This document shows, piece after piece, positions 21,583-43,816 of a stretch of 64,000 nt of DNA. The position numbers were made by a program, and so were the translations under genes. The stretch's first letter is position 1. Each line of letters opens with the position of its first letter. A model generated the notes under the pieces. The model saw only the letters and a program-made list of their open reading frames with translations. It was not told the DNA's origin and did not search any database. Origin of the DNA: Mesobacillus persicus. GTDB lineage: Bacteria > Bacillota > Bacilli > Bacillales > Cytobacillaceae. Where the stretch lies: contig NZ_FOBW01000001.1 in NCBI RefSeq assembly GCF_900109925.1, forward strand, positions 186,001-250,000, in the 5' to 3' direction.

Positions 21583-24003
21583 ATGAGTCAAAGTGTTAAA
21601 GAAACCACCTTGCAAATTTCAGGAATGACTTGTGCAGCTTGTGCGGTAAGAATAGAAAAAGGTTTAAAGAAACTCGATGGGGTTGAAGAGGCGAATGTCA
21701 ACTTAGCTCTAGAAAGATCTTCCATAAAATTTGACCCTGCGGTGACCAATGTTTCGGCTCTTGAGAACAAGGTAAGGGACCTGGGATACGAAGTGGTTAC
21801 CGAAAAATCAGAGTTTGATATTTCGGGCATGACTTGTGCTGCCTGTTCGACTAGAGTTGAGAAAGGACTAAATAAGCTTGAGGGAATTTCAAGCGCGAAC
21901 GTCAATCTAGCGTTAGAAAGGGCAACTGTGGAATATAATCCTTCGATTATCTCAAAAACCGACATTATTAAAAAAGTAGAGGCATTAGGCTATGGGGCTC
22001 ATTTAAAGCAAGATGAAAGTAAACAAGAAGCCGCTGACCATCGACAGCAGGAAGTCGAAAGACAGACTGGTAAGTTCATCTTTTCTGCCATCCTTTCCTT
22101 GCCGTTGCTCTGGGCTATGGTTGGGCACTTCTCGTTTACTGCTTTTATTTATGTACCTGACATGTTCATGAATCCATGGGTTCAGTTCGCCTTGGCGACA
22201 CCTGTTCAATTCGTTATTGGTAAGCAGTTCTATGTTGGTGCCTATAAAGCTTTGAAAAACAAAAGTGCAAATATGGATGTTTTAGTTGCTCTTGGGACAT
22301 CGGCTGCGTATTTTTATAGTCTCTATTTATCGTTTGCATCCATCGGGGGCAATGCTCATACAGTTGAGCTTTATTATGAAACAAGTGCTGTATTAATTAC
22401 ATTAATTATTCTTGGTAAGTTGTTCGAAGCAAGAGCAAAAGGTCGTTCGTCTGAGGCGATTAAAAAATTAATGGGCCTTCAAGCAAAAACAGCAGTCATT
22501 GAAAGGGATGGGCTCGAACAAGAGGTTTCTTTAGATGAGGTTATTGTTGGCGATATTATTCATGTAAAGCCTGGTGAAAAAATTCCGGTGGACGGTATCA
22601 TCGTCGAAGGGCAATCCGCTATTGATGAATCCATGTTGACAGGAGAAAGTGTCCCTGTTGATAAAAAATTTGATGATGAGGTCATTGGATCAACAATAAA
22701 CAAAAATGGATTCATAAAAATTAAAGCAACGAAGGTCGGCAAAGATACAGCTCTTGCTCAAATCATTAAAGTTGTGGAAGAGGCACAAGGATCGAAGGCT
22801 CCCATTCAACGGTTAGCGGACCAAATATCAGGTATTTTCGTCCCGATTGTAGTTGGTATCGCTTTAATCACATTTTTAATCTGGTATTTTATGGTTGTTC
22901 CAGGAGATTTCGCCGAGGCATTGGAAAAAATGATTGCTGTCCTTGTTATTGCTTGTCCGTGTGCGCTCGGACTTGCAACGCCAACATCGATTATGGCAGG
23001 TTCTGGGCGCGCCGCAGAGTTTGGAATTTTGTTTAAAGGCGGCGAGCATCTAGAGATGACTCACCGTATTAACTCCGTTATCTTAGACAAAACCGGAACA
23101 GTGACAAATGGAAAACCTGTTTTGACGGATGTATTTCCAACTGATTCATTCGTAGAAGCTGAGTTTCTTTCTCTTGTTGGCTCTGCAGAAAAACAATCAG
23201 AACACCCTTTAGCTGAAGCAATTGTTGCTGGGATTAAAGAACAGGGAATAGAATTAAAAGATGTTCAGTCATTTGAAGCGATTCCAGGATTCGGTATTAA
23301 AGCTACGGTAGAAGGTAAGGATCTGTTAGTTGGAACACGAAAATTAATGAACAAATATGAAATTAGCATTTCTGATTCCCTTGAAAAAATGGATACACTA
23401 GAACGCGAGGGAAAAACAGCGATGCTTGTTGCAGTGGATGGGAAATTTGCTGGAATGGTTGCGGTAGCTGATACAATCAAAGAAACTTCAAAAGCAGCTG
23501 TTAAACGTTTAAAAGATATGGGACTTGATGTCATCATGATTACCGGTGACAATCAACAAACGGCTAAATCAATTGCAGCGCAAGTCGGTATTGATCATGT
23601 CATTGCTGAAGTTCTTCCTGAAGGGAAAGCGGATGAAGTGAAGAAACTACAAGCCGAAGGCAAGAAAGTCGCGATGGTTGGCGACGGAATCAATGATGCC
23701 CCAGCACTTGCTGTTGCTGATATCGGCATGGCGATTGGAACAGGAACCGATGTTGCGATGGAGGCTGCCGATATCACTCTCATTCGTGGGGACTTAAACA
23801 GTATCGCTGACGCAATCTTTATGAGCAAAAAAACGATAAAAAATATTAAACAAAATCTCTTCTGGGCGTTAGCTTATAACTCACTTGGTATACCAATTGC
23901 AGCAGTAGGTTTCCTTGCTCCTTGGCTCGCGGGTGCAGCGATGGCATTTAGTTCTGTATCCGTTGTGTTGAATGCACTACGACTACAGAAAGTTAAATTG
24001 TAA
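21583..24003 (+). CDS. copA: Copper-exporting P1B-type ATPase CopA
   Basis: An 806-aa P-type ATPase. Two N-terminal heavy-metal domains each carry GMTCAAC (C17/C20 and C85/C88). Eight transmembrane helices follow, with the Cu site CPCALG in helix 6, the TGES actuator loop, the phosphorylation site DKTGT, the HP motif (EHPLAEA) and GDGINDAP. Exports Cu(I) from the cytosol. Length and order match B. subtilis CopA. Confidence 0.96.
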   Translation: MSQSVKETTLQISGMTCAACAVRIEKGLKKLDGVEEANVNLALERSSIKFDPAVTNVSALENKVRDLGYEVVTEKSEFDISGMTCAACSTRVEKGLNKLEGISSANVNLALERATVEYNPSIISKTDIIKKVEALGYGAHLKQDESKQEAADHRQQEVERQTGKFIFSAILSLPLLWAMVGHFSFTAFIYVPDMFMNPWVQFALATPVQFVIGKQFYVGAYKALKNKSANMDVLVALGTSAAYFYSLYLSFASIGGNAHTVELYYETSAVLITLIILGKLFEARAKGRSSEAIKKLMGLQAKTAVIERDGLEQEVSLDEVIVGDIIHVKPGEKIPVDGIIVEGQSAIDESMLTGESVPVDKKFDDEVIGSTINKNGFIKIKATKVGKDTALAQIIKVVEEAQGSKAPIQRLADQISGIFVPIVVGIALITFLIWYFMVVPGDFAEALEKMIAVLVIACPCALGLATPTSIMAGSGRAAEFGILFKGGEHLEMTHRINSVILDKTGTVTNGKPVLTDVFPTDSFVEAEFLSLVGSAEKQSEHPLAEAIVAGIKEQGIELKDVQSFEAIPGFGIKATVEGKDLLVGTRKLMNKYEISISDSLEKMDTLEREGKTAMLVAVDGKFAGMVAVADTIKETSKAAVKRLKDMGLDVIMITGDNQQTAKSIAAQVGIDHVIAEVLPEGKADEVKKLQAEGKKVAMVGDGINDAPALAVADIGMAIGTGTDVAMEAADITLIRGDLNSIADAIFMSKKTIKNIKQNLFWALAYNSLGIPIAAVGFLAPWLAGAAMAFSSVSVVLNALRLQKVKL

Positions 24004-26844: not shown

Positions 26845-28053
26845 ATGAAAAAAGGTTGGTACATATTATTAATTGTTCTATTATCCCTGGGGTTAGCTGC
26901 TTGTAACCAGGATGAAGAAGAGAAGGAGACAGCTGATGAAAATAAAGTTGAAAAAACTGAAGAATCAGCTTCTAAAGATGAAAATCAAGCTGATGACGAG
27001 GTTTACAGCACAAAGAATGTCACTCGGCTGAATGTAGAAAATATTGTCGATGCAGCCATTATGACTTCAAGAACTATTTGGCCAGCAACCATTGAAGAAA
27101 ACAAACCGAAAACGGTGATTCTTGTTCCTACAGACAATTGGCAGATTGCTTTGGCTTCCGCTGATATGATTCATCATCCAACAAATGGTCCTGTTTTGTT
27201 TTACGACCAGGATCAAATCTCTGATGAGACTGTTAAGGAAATTGAACGTTTAGCTCCACTTGGAGGAAGCGACGGAACTGAAGTAATGCTTATGGGTGAG
27301 CCAAATCAAAAAATAGTTGACCAGCTGAAGGATTATTCTGTTCAGCAGGTAAAAGGCTCTGACCCAGCTGAGTTTGCAGCGAAGATTGATGAAGTGTATG
27401 CAGAAGCAGCTGGAGAGTTGCCAAACAGTATCATCATTGTATCTGCAGAAGAAGAGGCAAAGCTCTACTCGCTGATTGCTGCTAACTGGATTTCGCATAT
27501 GTCGGAACCAATCTTATATATCACAAAGGACGGAATCCCAGAAGCAACAAGAGAAGCAATAAATAAGCGTAACAATAAGGCAAACCTTTATATTCTCGGA
27601 CCAGAAGAAGCTATTTCCAGTGAAATTGAAGACAGCTTGAAGGAATTTGGAACAGTGACTCGAATTGAAGGAAATACAGCTGTTGAGACATCGATTGCTT
27701 TTGCAAAGTTTAAAGATGAACAAACTGGGTTTGGTTGGGGAGTGAATGAACCAGGTATTGGGTTAGTATTCACCTCAACAGAAAAGCCTGAATATGCGAT
27801 TACTGCAGCACCGTTTGCGCATCTAGGTAAGCATGCACCTCTCATCTGGCTTGAAAATGGTGAATTGGCAAACGAAACGCATGTATTCTTGGCCGACCGA
27901 CAACCAACCTTCATCGATGATCCTACAGTGGGTCCATATAACCATGCTTACATCATTGGTTCAGGAGAGTCTATAACCATGGAAACTCAAGGAATGATAG
28001 ACCAAATGCTTGAAATTGTTTCAGAGGGTGGAGGTGGACATGCCGGCCACTAA
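26845..28053 (+). CDS. Lipoprotein with cell-wall-binding-repeat-2-like domain
   Basis: 402 aa. Lipoprotein signal with lipobox LGLAAC (Cys20), an acidic Glu/Asp/Lys linker to about residue 55, then a domain with degenerate CWB2-like repeats: VMLMGEPNQKIVDQLKDYSV, LYILGPEEAISSEIEDSLKE followed by VTRIEGNTAVETSIAFA, and AYIIGSGESI. The C-terminus GGGGHAGH is His-rich. Such domains bind anionic cell-wall polymers. Its own transcription unit (AAGGAG site, terminator 28088-28119). Whether it works with the copper or cytochrome genes around it is unknown. Confidence 0.7.
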   Translation: MKKGWYILLIVLLSLGLAACNQDEEEKETADENKVEKTEESASKDENQADDEVYSTKNVTRLNVENIVDAAIMTSRTIWPATIEENKPKTVILVPTDNWQIALASADMIHHPTNGPVLFYDQDQISDETVKEIERLAPLGGSDGTEVMLMGEPNQKIVDQLKDYSVQQVKGSDPAEFAAKIDEVYAEAAGELPNSIIIVSAEEEAKLYSLIAANWISHMSEPILYITKDGIPEATREAINKRNNKANLYILGPEEAISSEIEDSLKEFGTVTRIEGNTAVETSIAFAKFKDEQTGFGWGVNEPGIGLVFTSTEKPEYAITAAPFAHLGKHAPLIWLENGELANETHVFLADRQPTFIDDPTVGPYNHAYIIGSGESITMETQGMIDQMLEIVSEGGGGHAGH

Positions 28054-28288: not shown

Positions 28289-28735
28289 GTGAAACGTCTA
28301 GTTCTTTTATTGATGATGGGGATGTTCTCGCTGGGAGTTGCATCAGGTTGCAGTTCAAGTCAGGCGGAAGAAACGCTTGACGCAAAGCATAGTTCCATGC
28401 CGGACTATGTACTTAATTCATCACCAATCGTTCAGGAGACTTATGTAATGGCAGCGAATCATCAAGATGTATTGGCTTCTGTTCCTTGTTACTGTAACTG
28501 CTATGAGTCTGCTGGTCATACTAGCAATCTAAGTTGTTTTATTAAAGAGGTAGGGCCTGATAATGTTGTAACAGAATGGGATCCACATGGTATAGCCTGA
28601 GACATTTGTGTAGAAATCGCCCGGGAGGCGATTGATATTAATAATAGTGGAAAAGATTTGAAAGAAGTCAATCGGTTAATTACAAAGAAGTATGAAAGTT
28701 ATGGAATTCCAACTCCTACTCCAATACCAGAATAG
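28289..28735 (+). CDS. PCYCGC-motif lipoprotein with in-frame UGA (possible selenoprotein)
   Basis: Lipoprotein signal with lipobox VASGC (C21), then PCYCNC (66-71), AGHTSN and C83, as in PCYCGC-motif proteins. The frame meets TGA at 28598-28600 after HGIA, then continues without a stop for 44 codons: DICVEIAREA ... PTPTPIPE, TAG 28733. In family members I recall, this point reads C-x-x-C (HGxxCGVCLEIA), so the TGA takes the place of the first Cys and would give Sec-x-x-Cys. A SECIS-like hairpin follows (28615-28633). GTG start behind AAAGGAGG. The cytochrome c gene begins 9 bp on. Without Sec insertion it is a 103-aa truncated product or recent pseudogene. Confidence 0.75.
28615..28633 (+). 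promoter_or_regulatory. SECIS-like hairpin after the in-frame UGA
   Basis: Perfect 7-bp stem AATCGCC / GGCGATT with loop CGGGA. The loop begins 22 nt after the UGA and has G at its second position, which fits the general bacterial SECIS pattern (loop about 16-37 nt downstream, early loop G). The hairpin could also be chance in coding sequence. Confidence 0.4.
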
Positions 28736-28744
28736 GGGATAACA

Positions 28745-29449
28745 ATGAAAAAATGGCTGATAGCTCTTGGTGTATTTATCTCGGTTGTAATAATTGTGTT
28801 GTTGAGTCCTTCTCCTGATTTCAAGCCTCAGGCAGAAACGAACCTTATTGTAAAAGGGGAAAGAATCTATTCGGAATACTGTGTTGATTGCCATGGTGAA
28901 AATGGAAAAGGGGAAGGTGCTCAAATCGGGACAGCTTTAAATAATCAACATTTTTTAAGCACCTTTTCAAATAAAGACATTTTTAAAATTATTAATGAGG
29001 GTAAAGAACAAACGATGATGCCACAGTTTGGCTTTCTCGAAGAAGACAATATTAACGCTTTAGTCTCTTTCATCCGTAATTGGCAAACAGACACTTTGGA
29101 ACTTGAAGCCCCATCTGTCATTGAAGGCAATGCTTCGAACGGAAGGAGACTTTACAATTTATATTGTATTACATGTCATGGGGAGACTGGGAGCGGTACT
29201 CTTACAAAAGCTGCCGCCATCGGAAACCCAATTACTGTAGAAAATATGACCCCTCAACAAATGTGGATTTCCACTGCATACGGTCGAGAAGAAACGAGAA
29301 TGGGTCCATCTTTAAAAGGACAAGATGGAGTGCGTCAACTAGATGAACAAGAAATTAGCGATGTTATTACTTATATTCGCCAGGATTTAGTTCAACTATA
29401 TGACCCAAAAGAGTCGAAGCATAGCACGCACGCTATTATTGAGGACTAA
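28745..29449 (+). CDS. Membrane-anchored dihaem cytochrome c
   Basis: 234 aa. N-terminal uncleaved anchor (WLIALGVFISVVIIVLL), then two cytochrome c domains with haem motifs CVDCH (about 46-50) and CITCH (about 142-146). Candidate distal Met ligands are in MMPQFG and RMGPSL. It transfers electrons at the outer face of the membrane. It starts 9 bp after the PCYCGC frame, so the two are co-transcribed, consistent with envelope electron transfer or haem/copper handling. Confidence 0.87.
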   Translation: MKKWLIALGVFISVVIIVLLSPSPDFKPQAETNLIVKGERIYSEYCVDCHGENGKGEGAQIGTALNNQHFLSTFSNKDIFKIINEGKEQTMMPQFGFLEEDNINALVSFIRNWQTDTLELEAPSVIEGNASNGRRLYNLYCITCHGETGSGTLTKAAAIGNPITVENMTPQQMWISTAYGREETRMGPSLKGQDGVRQLDEQEISDVITYIRQDLVQLYDPKESKHSTHAIIED

Positions 29450-29554: not shown

Positions 29555-29800
29555 TTAAAATTTATTTAAACTATTCGTCGTTTGGACTGCTGGTGCAGCC
29601 TTGTTGCCGTTTCCGTGGCAAGAGATATACATTTGTTGTAGTTCCTCATCAGAGAAATCAGGATGCATTTCTTTCATAAATGGAAGCATTTCCTTAAAAT
29701 TTGTACTACCTTCTCCAATTTCATCTGTTTGTGCAAGTGCAAACGTACCAGCACTTAAAAGAAATGCGATACTCATCAAACCAATCATCAGTTTTTTCAA
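29555..29800 (-). CDS. Small secreted protein, paralogue of the 20.5 kb protein
   Basis: 81 aa. Signal peptide (KKLMIGLMSIAFLLSAGTFALA-Q) and a mature part with MLPFMKEMHPDFSDEELQQMY and SCHGNG. The same MKxMHPxxxxxE ... HGxG arrangement as in the secreted protein at 20503-20781; here a CHG replaces MHG, resembling half of a haem or copper site. TTG start, 8 bases after AAAGGAG. Role unknown; context (cytochrome c, CcdA-like protein) suggests extracytoplasmic metal or redox work. Confidence 0.65.
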   Translation of the reverse strand: MKKLMIGLMSIAFLLSAGTFALAQTDEIGEGSTNFKEMLPFMKEMHPDFSDEELQQMYISCHGNGNKAAPAVQTTNSLNKF

Positions 29801-29980: not shown

Positions 29981-30712
29981 ATGTATCAGTTTCTCTCAGA
30001 AATCAGTCAAGTCTTAAGCAGCCCCTTTTTTAATATCGTTAATGAAACGAAACAGTTTCCAATATTGGCAGCCCTGATTTTAGGTTTAATCGGCGCTTTG
30101 GCACCGTGTCAATTAACTGGAAACATTGGTGCGATTACTCTTTACGGAAGTAAGAGTATCCAAACAAGGCATCAATGGGTTGAAATTGGCTTTTTTGTTC
30201 TTGGGAAAATTGTAGTCTTTACCGCTTTAGGCTTGGCAGTTTGGGGATTAGGACGGGGGTTTCAAGATCTCCTCCCTGAGTTTTTTTCCGTTTTTAGAAA
30301 GTTTATTGGACCTTTATTTATTGTTATTGGCTTGGTGTTAGCTGGGATGATCAAGCTTCGCTGGCTTGATTTGCTGACAAAGCGGTTGCCCAAATTGGAG
30401 GGGAGCGGTAAAGCTGGATCTTTTCTATTAGGTGTAAGCTTTTCTATCGCTTTTTGTCCGACGATGTTTTCTCTATTTTTCTTTTCACTGATGCCACTTG
30501 TTGTAAGCAGCTCGTACGGTGCAGTGCTTCCGTCAATATTTGCTATTGGGACATCCGTTCCAGTTCTTGTTTTTGCAGGCATCATAACTTATATCGGTTT
30601 AGACGGTTCAATAATGAAGAAAAGTAGAAAAATTGGTAATTTCATTCAAAAAGCAGCAGCGGGACTTTTTATTCTCATCGGCATCCTCGATACGATCACT
30701 TATTGGTTGTGA
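29981..30712 (+). CDS. CcdA/DsbD-like membrane protein (cytochrome c biogenesis / sulfite exporter-like family)
   Basis: A 243-aa polytopic protein with six hydrophobic segments. The two family Cys-Pro motifs are present: GALAPCQLTGN in the first helix pair and IAFCPTMFSLF in the fourth. CcdA-type proteins pass reducing equivalents across the membrane to extracytoplasmic thiols, for example for haem attachment or copper delivery. This fits the neighbouring dihaem cytochrome c and Cys-rich lipoprotein. GGGGG ribosome site. Confidence 0.75.
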   Translation: MYQFLSEISQVLSSPFFNIVNETKQFPILAALILGLIGALAPCQLTGNIGAITLYGSKSIQTRHQWVEIGFFVLGKIVVFTALGLAVWGLGRGFQDLLPEFFSVFRKFIGPLFIVIGLVLAGMIKLRWLDLLTKRLPKLEGSGKAGSFLLGVSFSIAFCPTMFSLFFFSLMPLVVSSSYGAVLPSIFAIGTSVPVLVFAGIITYIGLDGSIMKKSRKIGNFIQKAAAGLFILIGILDTITYWL

Positions 30713-42874: not shown

Positions 42875-43816
42875 ATGTCACATCATCATCAAAACCAAAA
42901 TCAGCAACAACCAAATCACCAAGAATATCCGATGTACCCTAATTATGGCAAGATCACAGAATATAAAGACGTCCCGATCACTGTACCTGAGCAAAGGCAA
43001 CTTCGCCAGCCTGGGGTAGAAAAGTTAATGGTTCCACGACCTATCATCGAGAATCCAAATTATCATGGTAGCGGGAAGTTAAACGGAAAAGTGGTTTTAA
43101 TTACAGGTGGCGATAGTGGAATTGGAGCGGCTGCATCGATTGCGTTTGCGAAAGAAGGTGCCAATGTTGCTATTTCTTACTTAGATGAACACGAGGATGC
43201 CAACCGAACAAAAACGAGAATTGAAGAACTCGGGCAGCAATGTTTACTCTTACCTGGCGATTTACGAGATAAACAGCAATGCATTGAAATTGTCGAGAAA
43301 ACGGTTCAGACATTTGGTCAGCTAGATATCCTTTGTAATAATGTCGGAATTCAGTTTCAACAATTAAGCTTGCTCGATATTACCGATGAACAATTTGATG
43401 ATACCTTTAAAGTAAATATTTACTCTCATTTTTACACGACTCGAGCGGCGCTCCCTTACTTGAAGGCAGGTAGTTCGATTATCAACACTTCCTCTGTGGT
43501 AACTTATGTAGGTTTTGAGCAATTAATCGATTATACGGCGACAAAGGGAGCAATTATTGGGTTTACGCGCGCCTTGGCAAACAATTTAGTTGAGAAAGGG
43601 ATTCGGGTCAATGCCGTTGCCCCTGGCCGTGTCTGGACACCGCTAATCCCAGCTAGTTTTTCCGCAGACCAAGTTTCATTGGTAGAAAATCCGATGCAGC
43701 GCCAAGCACAGCCATTCGAGCTAGCGCCCACGTATGTGTAGTTAGCCTCAGATGATTCTCGTTTTGTCACCGGACAAACACTGCATGTGAATGGTGGCCA
43801 AGTGATGTCCTCATAA
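42875..43816 (+). pseudogene. General-stress-type SDR oxidoreductase, interrupted by TAG
   Basis: Resembles the Bacillus SDRs YhdF/YhxC/YdaD: Gln/His-rich N-terminus, [10 protein letters not shown] cofactor loop, NNVG, and an active-site YTATKGA. The frame stops at TAG 43739-43741 after APTYV, but translation beyond it gives LASDDSRFVTGQ ... VNGGQVMSS ending at 43816, exactly the normal C-terminus. The stop most likely replaces an aromatic residue (TAT/TAC to TAG) and removes the last 25 residues, which include part of the dimer interface. ATG 42875 follows AGGAGG; the longer upstream frame is not supported. Confidence 0.8.

Follow-up and report, generated by a model that had tools for sequence, protein, structure and literature searches.

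The in-frame UGA codon (28598-28600) of a PCYCGC-family lipoprotein gene from Mesobacillus persicus very probably directs the insertion of selenocysteine (Sec), as judged by comparison of sequences. The codon occupies a position that is otherwise an invariant Cys, a conserved hairpin follows it, and the genome encodes the machinery for Sec; on these three grounds taken together we regard the product as a selenoprotein. The gene lies in what we call the window, the whole 64,000-nucleotide stretch of DNA that was analysed, and the features relevant to this reading are collected in Table 1.

Table 1. Features of the PCYCGC gene and its downstream neighbours (positions in the window)
Feature	Position	Strand	Remarks
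PCYCGC-family lipoprotein gene, predicted selenoprotein	28289..28735	+	GTG start, UGA read as Sec, TAG stop, 148 aa
Lipobox Cys codon, residue 21, predicted mature N-terminus	28349..28351	+	From sequence; Cys throughout column 1 of alignment A1, whose rows were begun at this residue by choice
PCYCNC motif codons, P66-C71 of the precursor	28484..28501	+	Mature Cys 47, 49 and 51 invariant in A1
Putative Sec-encoding UGA, first position of UxxC	28598..28600	+	TGA in 117/140 homologous genes read (GTDB family)
Cys codon TGT of UxxC	28607..28609	+	Invariant in A1
Predicted bacterial SECIS hairpin	28615..28633	+	7-bp stem 28615-28621/28627-28633, loop CGGGA 28622-28626
Dihaem cytochrome c gene	28745..29449	+	Cytochrome_CBB3, two stretches; 9 bp downstream of 28289-28735
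DsbD_2 / CcdA-like membrane protein	29981..30712	+	PF13386, 73.4 bits

With the TGA read as Sec, the protein carries the lipobox Cys together with PCYCNC and AUDIC motifs, and has five Cys and the Sec besides the lipobox Cys; 44 open codons lie between the TGA and the TAG stop (28733-28735). A first-pass annotation, made from the letters of the DNA, had proposed a PCYCGC lipoprotein whose frame stays open after the TGA, and this was borne out by the PF13798 profile, which matches residues 32-147 and spans the TGA (112.6 bits against a cut-off of 25, TGA read as Cys). A whole-genome profile search of the assembly (4.64 Mb, 40 contigs, 99.99% complete) gave no other PF13798 match. The suggestion that the TGA takes the place of the first Cys of a CxxC motif, giving UxxC, likewise holds, as columns 84 (the TGA) and 87 (its partner) are both invariant Cys in alignment A1 (57 rows, mature numbering, UGA read as Cys). 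Compared with the nearest copies (L042 and L060), the part of the gene after the UGA has a pS of 0.49 and a pN of 0.12, and in four more distant pairs pS is 0.55-0.74 and pN 0.14-0.26; pN is below pS in all six pairs compared, and by this measure the region is under purifying selection. The nearest named relative, Mesobacillus campisalis (79% identity over 128 residues), also has TGA, in a search that may omit records of the window's own genome, and many of the other near loci belong to Neobacillus or unnamed Bacillus species.

PF13798 was found in 112 of the 193 genomes searched in the GTDB family. The PCYCGC genes that were read, 140 in 110 genomes, comprise 117 with UGA and 23 with Cys; 92 of the 110 genomes bear UGA (87 UGA only, 5 both forms) and the other 18 have Cys only. 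For the covariation set, 160 PF13798 matches less four rows and 26 duplicates gave 130 rows, from which the 128 distinct proteins of the tree were taken. The four omitted rows are L162 and L037, which are valid and were missed by the motif, and two frames of the frameshifted L165; the per-genome count restores L162 and L037 and omits the frameshifted copy of G051, the decayed copy of G029 and fragments in G075 and G127. The distinct UGA sequences form two clades, clade I with 89 members, including that of the window, and clade II with 19 (MGFGU). Named loci were counted over the best 80 of 421 confirmed, many of which repeat genomes of the family search, so the two counts are not independent. 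A sample of 397 genomes from the order yielded PF13798 matches at E 1e-10 in 213, with no internal stop among the matches listed. Re-examination of 36 of these 213, chosen for weak E-values, gave 27 genomes, from 11 other families, having a match with one TGA inside (28 such matches, 23 read). Tandem pairs of UGA PCYCGC genes occur in genus g8 and at L186, L188, L189, L191, L192 and L199, those at L186, L189 and L199 near a P-type ATPase.

The TGA could be a dead stop in a decaying gene, produced by a nonsense mutation or a sequencing error, a caveat that the first-pass annotation had attached to its own reading on account of a plain in-frame TAG in another gene of the window (42875-43816). 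That TAG is real and unrelated to the PCYCGC gene. We give the explanation practically no credence, as TGA and hairpin core recur in 117 genes from 92 genomes, the region downstream is under purifying selection, and the closest relatives, such as M. campisalis, share the TGA rather than having Cys where the window copy decays. Because the same TGA is present in 92 genomes of the family, a private sequencing error is ruled out, and decay or error as a general explanation is refuted by the conservation of the TGA. Truly decaying PCYCGC copies do exist, in contrast to the conserved UGA copies: L165 (G051) has a frameshift and L130 (G029) has TGA, TAG and TAA. As for the gene at 42875-43816, which is SDR-like from reading its translation, its TAG (43739-43741) is codon 289, 25 codons (stop included) before the natural end, and looks like a nonsense mutation or error.

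The hairpin is as the first-pass annotation described it: the stem (AAUCGCC/GGCGAUU) begins at +15 from the UGA, the loop lies at +22, and loop position 2 is G. According to PMC13188914, bacterial SECIS (bSECIS) elements have a loop of 3-9 nt, a stem of 4-16 bp, a minimum free energy (MFE) of -7.5 kcal/mol or lower and a distance of 16-37 nt from the UGA, and also need a G among the first two loop positions. The window hairpin, with a 5-nt loop, a 7-bp stem, G at position 2, a spacing of 21 nt and an MFE of -11 kcal/mol (-9.4 kcal/mol for the minimal hairpin), lies within all of these limits, which upholds its earlier description as SECIS-like. Dinucleotide shuffles that folded as well numbered 0/200 for a 40-nt segment, 9/200 for 48 nt and 4/200 for 27 nt. 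With folding z-scores of -2.0 to -2.5 for the window hairpin and -0.3 for that of a relative (L106), MFE alone is insufficient as proof of a SECIS; the fold by itself is modest evidence, and it is conservation that is decisive.

Counted by genome over the GTDB family, the hairpin core is intact in 117 of 117 UGA copies versus none of the 23 Cys copies. All four core pairs form in each of the 108 distinct UGA sequences, loop position 2 being G in every one, and the core is never complete in 22 Cys copies. Pair (20,32), which joins the third positions of Ile and Ala codons, is CG in 89 of the 108, AT in 13, TA in 5 and TG in 1, and pair (23,29), at the third positions of Ala and Glu/Asp codons, is CG in 105 and GC in 3; the pairing observed at these two places was reached by none of 5000 shuffles, which ignore relatedness. 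Outer pairs are looser, with (18,34) formed in 80 and (17,35) in 67 of the 108. Codon use tells the same story at the level of single residues: Ala is GCC in 105/108 and Glu is GAG in 105/105 of the UGA copies, the equivalent Ala of the Cys copies being GCA in 9, GCT in 7, GCC in 5 and GCG in 1, and the choice of codon in the UGA copies follows the RNA hairpin. Among the best 80 of 421 named loci, the core is present in 62/62 with UGA and 0/18 with Cys, and all 23 of the UGA copies that were read outside the GTDB family, elsewhere in the order, keep the 4-bp core. Folding energy is a poorer guide than core pairing: over 36 nt, -7.5 kcal/mol is reached by 88/108 UGA copies and by 4/22 Cys copies. 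A divergent group of UGA PCYCGC genes (PCYCNC ... GAGUGIC; L292, L293, L294 and L296, in families f26, f29 and f46) has a CUGGA loop with G at position 3 and a weak, G-U-rich stem, and the SECIS elements of these four loci are therefore atypical.

A search of the window's genome for the Sec machinery found tRNA-Sec (63.5 bits; tRNA-SeC with anticodon tca according to ARAGORN), selB (366.9 bits), selA (576.2 bits) and selD (395.3 bits), the last with an in-frame TGA of its own (GUGCK). Every sel gene found falls outside the window, in keeping with the earlier remark that it holds none, and selA and selD are on the same contig, ~36-40 kb past its end. A hairpin is also predicted after the UGA of selD (L021 1501-2427; G000:C28:288762-289688); since selD is itself a UGA gene, this contig has two predicted selenoprotein genes within a span of 80 kb. 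Across the family, tRNA-Sec was detected at E <= 1e-10 in 145 of 193 genomes. Thirteen of the 16 PF13798-bearing genomes absent from that list were positive at 1e-8, a threshold at which 5 of 14 control genomes were positive versus 2 at 1e-10; ARAGORN confirmed all 12 of the tRNA-Sec loci returned at 1e-8, the thirteenth genome (G105) having given no locus. The resulting totals are 109 of 112 PF13798-bearing genomes and 89 of 92 UGA-bearing genomes, a co-occurrence that is weak evidence because tRNA-Sec is common in the family anyway. Two of the UGA genomes that gave no tRNA-Sec match are incomplete (G079, 66%; G161, 85%) and both have selA. In the third, G171 (99% complete), tRNA-Sec (E 1e-8) and selA were searched for and neither was found; its UGA PCYCGC copy (L079), in which the hairpin core is intact, may represent an assembly gap, a contaminant contig or a relic.

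A UGA gene in a genome with neither tRNA-Sec nor selA detected is also what one might see if the codon were read as some residue other than Sec, such as Trp through near-cognate suppression, or if it served a regulated truncation, and Sec at the UGA is itself predicted from sequence. We nevertheless consider such readings highly improbable, given that the position is Cys in 23/23 non-UGA homologues, that the hairpin is selected and fits the bSECIS rules, that its core separates the UGA copies (117/117) from the Cys copies (0/23), and that selA, selB, selD and tRNA-Sec are present.

Insertion of Sec places the window gene in an already listed selenoprotein family, below the curated equivalog cut-off. 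PMC13188914 lists a CYCXC family protein (hypothetical protein OS_HP4; PF13798) with UxxC and one Sec, for which it cites Zhang and Gladyshev 2007 (Olavius algarvensis symbiont), and OS_HP4 is also given with UxxC in PMC9312934. The window protein shares PF13798, a single Sec and UxxC with OS_HP4/CYCXC (NCBIfam NF041379), whereas it differs from the table entry for OS_HP4 in being a lipoprotein, in coming from Bacillales and in belonging to a group that is often ccm-linked. It scores 67 bits against NF041379 and misses the cut-off of 90, as do the ten relatives scanned with it (62.7-83.2 bits), which makes 11 Bacillales representatives in all (9 UGA, 2 Cys). The first-pass reading of the UGA as Sec therefore stands, though it did not foresee that the family had already been listed as a UxxC selenoprotein. 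PCYCGC lipoproteins with Cys, such as that of Parageobacillus, described as of unknown function in PMC13068155, share PF13798, the lipobox, PCYCGC and the further conserved Cys; they differ in having Cys for Sec, and no intact SECIS-like core occurs in the 23 Cys copies of the family set, a set without Parageobacillus. Among earlier surveys, PMC1794560 counted, as of 2006, 3 selenoproteins in Bacillales and a total of 15 Sec-to-Cys events spread over four families, and PMC5029168 has a row on selenouridine in which Bacillales species are named; PMC13188914 states that selenoproteins are rarely kept by aerobic bacteria and that FdhA and SelD provide most of the documented changes from Sec to Cys. 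Our search of the open-access literature found no paper on UGA-PCYCGC genes in Bacillales or on their link with ccm genes. The spread in Bacillales, the cytochrome c/CcmE-CcmF-CcmH neighbourhood and the Sec/Cys switching at this position look new, in that we did not find them in print.

Ten Cys copies are nested in the Sec clade of the protein tree when it is rooted towards the canonical Cys rows, a nesting from which the direction of change appears to be Sec to Cys. The tree counts 6 Sec/Cys changes, of which at least 3 are forced by starred branches. A single Cys clade is not rejected by the AU test (p 0.12; 0.096 for the ten Sec-clade Cys rows alone), which leaves repeated reversion from Sec to Cys in the tree of the protein without support from that test. 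On a CcmF tree of 49 loci, 7 changes are required to explain the labels, 6 or more of them forced, and the labels cluster no more than shuffled ones do; here one Cys clade is rejected (p 6e-34). As the two trees disagree, part of the pattern may be due to alleles exchanged between species, and conversion and exchange cannot be separated on these trees. Seven named Cys copies occupy the same operon position as Sec copies (best 80 of 421 named loci). Neobacillus cucumis offers one such comparison, DSM 101566 having TGT (L239) versus TGA in V32-6 (L232), two strains of one name that are treated as two species. The putative DSM 101566 genome (G102) has kept tRNA-Sec and selA, and tRNA-Sec is present in every Cys-bearing genome of the family count.

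The gene neighbourhood bears on function. Both neighbours noticed in the first pass, the dihaem cytochrome c gene and the CcdA-like gene, were recovered, and the former is likely cotranscribed with the PCYCGC gene. A dihaem cytochrome c homologue lies just downstream on the same strand in 53 of the best 80 of 421 named loci, at a median offset of ~0.4 kb. By clade, taking the first same-strand ORF of >=70 aa within stretches of ~1.5 kb, it stands beside 57/89 UGA and 7/10 Cys copies of clade I; it was seen beside 0/19 clade II UGA and 0/12 canonical Cys copies, where a downstream same-strand ORF was in reach for only 8 and 3. The complete set of cytochrome c, cluster-2 protein, CcmE, CcmF and CcmH, ordered thus by median offsets, accompanies 44 of the best 80 of 421 named loci (37 UGA, 7 Cys), the Pfam names having been verified on one locus, L245. 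This arrangement occurs mostly in Neobacillus, and a genome of the window's own genus (G092) has one PCYCGC copy between EF-P and the cytochrome of a ccm cluster. In the window's genome the PCYCGC-cytochrome pair is separate, in the window; the ccm cluster (L264) has no PCYCGC gene and comprises CcmH by Pfam, CcmE- and CcmF-like proteins by eye and a TlpA-like thioredoxin-fold protein, and there is a second ccm-like locus (L265). L264 and L265 are two separate System I-like loci, of which one has a CcmH-like protein with CTCGCGQDHYACD and the other a CcmH-like protein that lacks a CxC motif.

The CcdA-like protein is a candidate supplier of reductant to the UxxC motif; its homologues occur in 4 of the best 80 of 421 named loci, and also in L042, L060, L068, L074, L104 and L105. 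The gene for a CWB2 lipoprotein (26845-28053) is not a conserved neighbour, with 1 match, at 30% identity, in the best 80 of 421 named loci. Between the cytochrome c and CcdA-like genes lies an 81-aa, secreted-looking ORF (29555-29800, - strand) that has no Pfam match and has relatives in L202 and L222 (2 of the best 80 of 421 named loci), L060, L127 and L162.

We tentatively suggest that UxxC forms an extracytoplasmic redox or soft-metal centre that serves cytochrome c maturation and is reduced by a CcdA- or TlpA-like partner. The wider context in the window, which besides the CcdA-like protein includes an HMA-domain P-type ATPase (21583-24003; its family suggests copper as substrate), a histidine kinase and a response regulator, would also suit a lipoprotein of a metal-stress locus that mainly binds copper or another soft metal and takes no direct part in cytochrome c maturation. 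Five Cys and a Sec beyond the lipobox Cys would be apt for such binding, and homologues of the ATPase (>=50% identity) are found in 7 of the 16 UGA loci that have none of the five ccm-cluster genes (best 80 of 421 named loci); however, the whole ccm cluster at 44 of those 80 loci and the retention of the cytochrome c gene 9 bp downstream in the window argue against this role, which we consider less likely than not. The dihaem cytochrome c could instead be the point of the association, the protein acting as its dedicated electron-transfer partner or chaperone, with the ccm genes present simply because they usually accompany cytochrome c genes. Among UGA and Cys copies of clade I alike it is the most constant neighbour, and the window retains it even though no ccm genes adjoin the pair; on the other hand, M. 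campisalis (L180), which does have a CcdA-like gene, shows no cytochrome of this kind within 2 kb downstream, and we regard this role, too, as less likely than not.

For the cytochrome c maturation reading, comparison with CcmH provides a possible lead. CcmH (PF03918, System I) resembles the PCYCGC protein in its CxC-G-C arrangement, in a helical region and in a shared operon, mostly in Neobacillus, whereas the PCYCGC protein is lipid-anchored and a long helix at the C-terminus of the local CcmH appears to span the membrane. The mature protein, modelled with confidence by AlphaFold2 (pLDDT 94.1) with Cys in place of the UGA residue, retrieved CcmH from the PDB by Foldseek as the first (2hl7; E 2.2, prob 0.21) and sixth (2kw0; E 5.6) match. 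These values are weak; as a yardstick, a local CcmH certified by Pfam gave, when modelled, E 0.64 and prob 0.90 against 2hl7. Realignment of Foldseek's own matches by VIA-align put CcmH chains in the top two places, again weakly (Z 4.5 over 75 residues at 3.5 A, and Z 3.6). By hhalign, the match to 20 local CcmH rows, none of which has UGA, had a probability of 79% (P 1.5e-5) and a score of 36.4, compared with at most 21.8 in 100 column shuffles and 14.0 for the reversed profile. When the Cys columns were held fixed, one of 100 shuffles (40.4) scored above the real match; the match therefore rests largely on Cys spacing, and kinship with CcmH is not established by profile comparison, which provides a lead only. 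The window protein itself had no match to PF03918 at E <= 0.001, and the family profile gave nothing useful against PDB sequences, the one match being Saposin-A (E 0.22). Fold, operon and profile agree in direction, none being conclusive, and suggest a CcmH-like role in cytochrome c maturation. As a speculative extension, the PCYCGC lipoproteins could form a distant branch that is CcmH-like, in which case a Sec-dependent step of cytochrome c maturation would operate on the outer face of the membrane in many Bacillales, with Sec and Cys versions of this operon gene swapped repeatedly among close relatives that keep tRNA-Sec.

In the mechanism we propose, SelB carrying Sec-tRNA(UCA) would bind the hairpin that starts 15 nt after the UGA, and the ribosome would insert Sec to give a 148-aa protein with PCYC-x-C and UxxC; when selenium is absent, translation would be expected to halt at residue 103. 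After lipid anchoring, the selenol/thiol pair of UxxC may act as the extracytoplasmic redox (or soft-metal) centre for cytochrome c maturation, and the CcdA-like or TlpA-like partner may reduce it.

In conclusion, bacilli, many named isolates among them, appear to possess a widespread surface selenoprotein that occurs in Sec and Cys versions at one operon position. Annotation that lacks a model for Sec would end these proteins at the UGA and lose UxxC, with the proteins of 92 genomes in one family and of 27 genomes in 11 other families of the order at stake. The lineage and gene context of this selenoprotein deserve attention, as the link with ccm genes is the first concrete functional lead found for PF13798, a family of unknown function. 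Since both versions occupy the same place in the operon, the question of Sec versus Cys can be tested by allele swap, and if the CcmH-like reading is true, the Sec/Cys swaps would be a natural experiment on what selenium buys.
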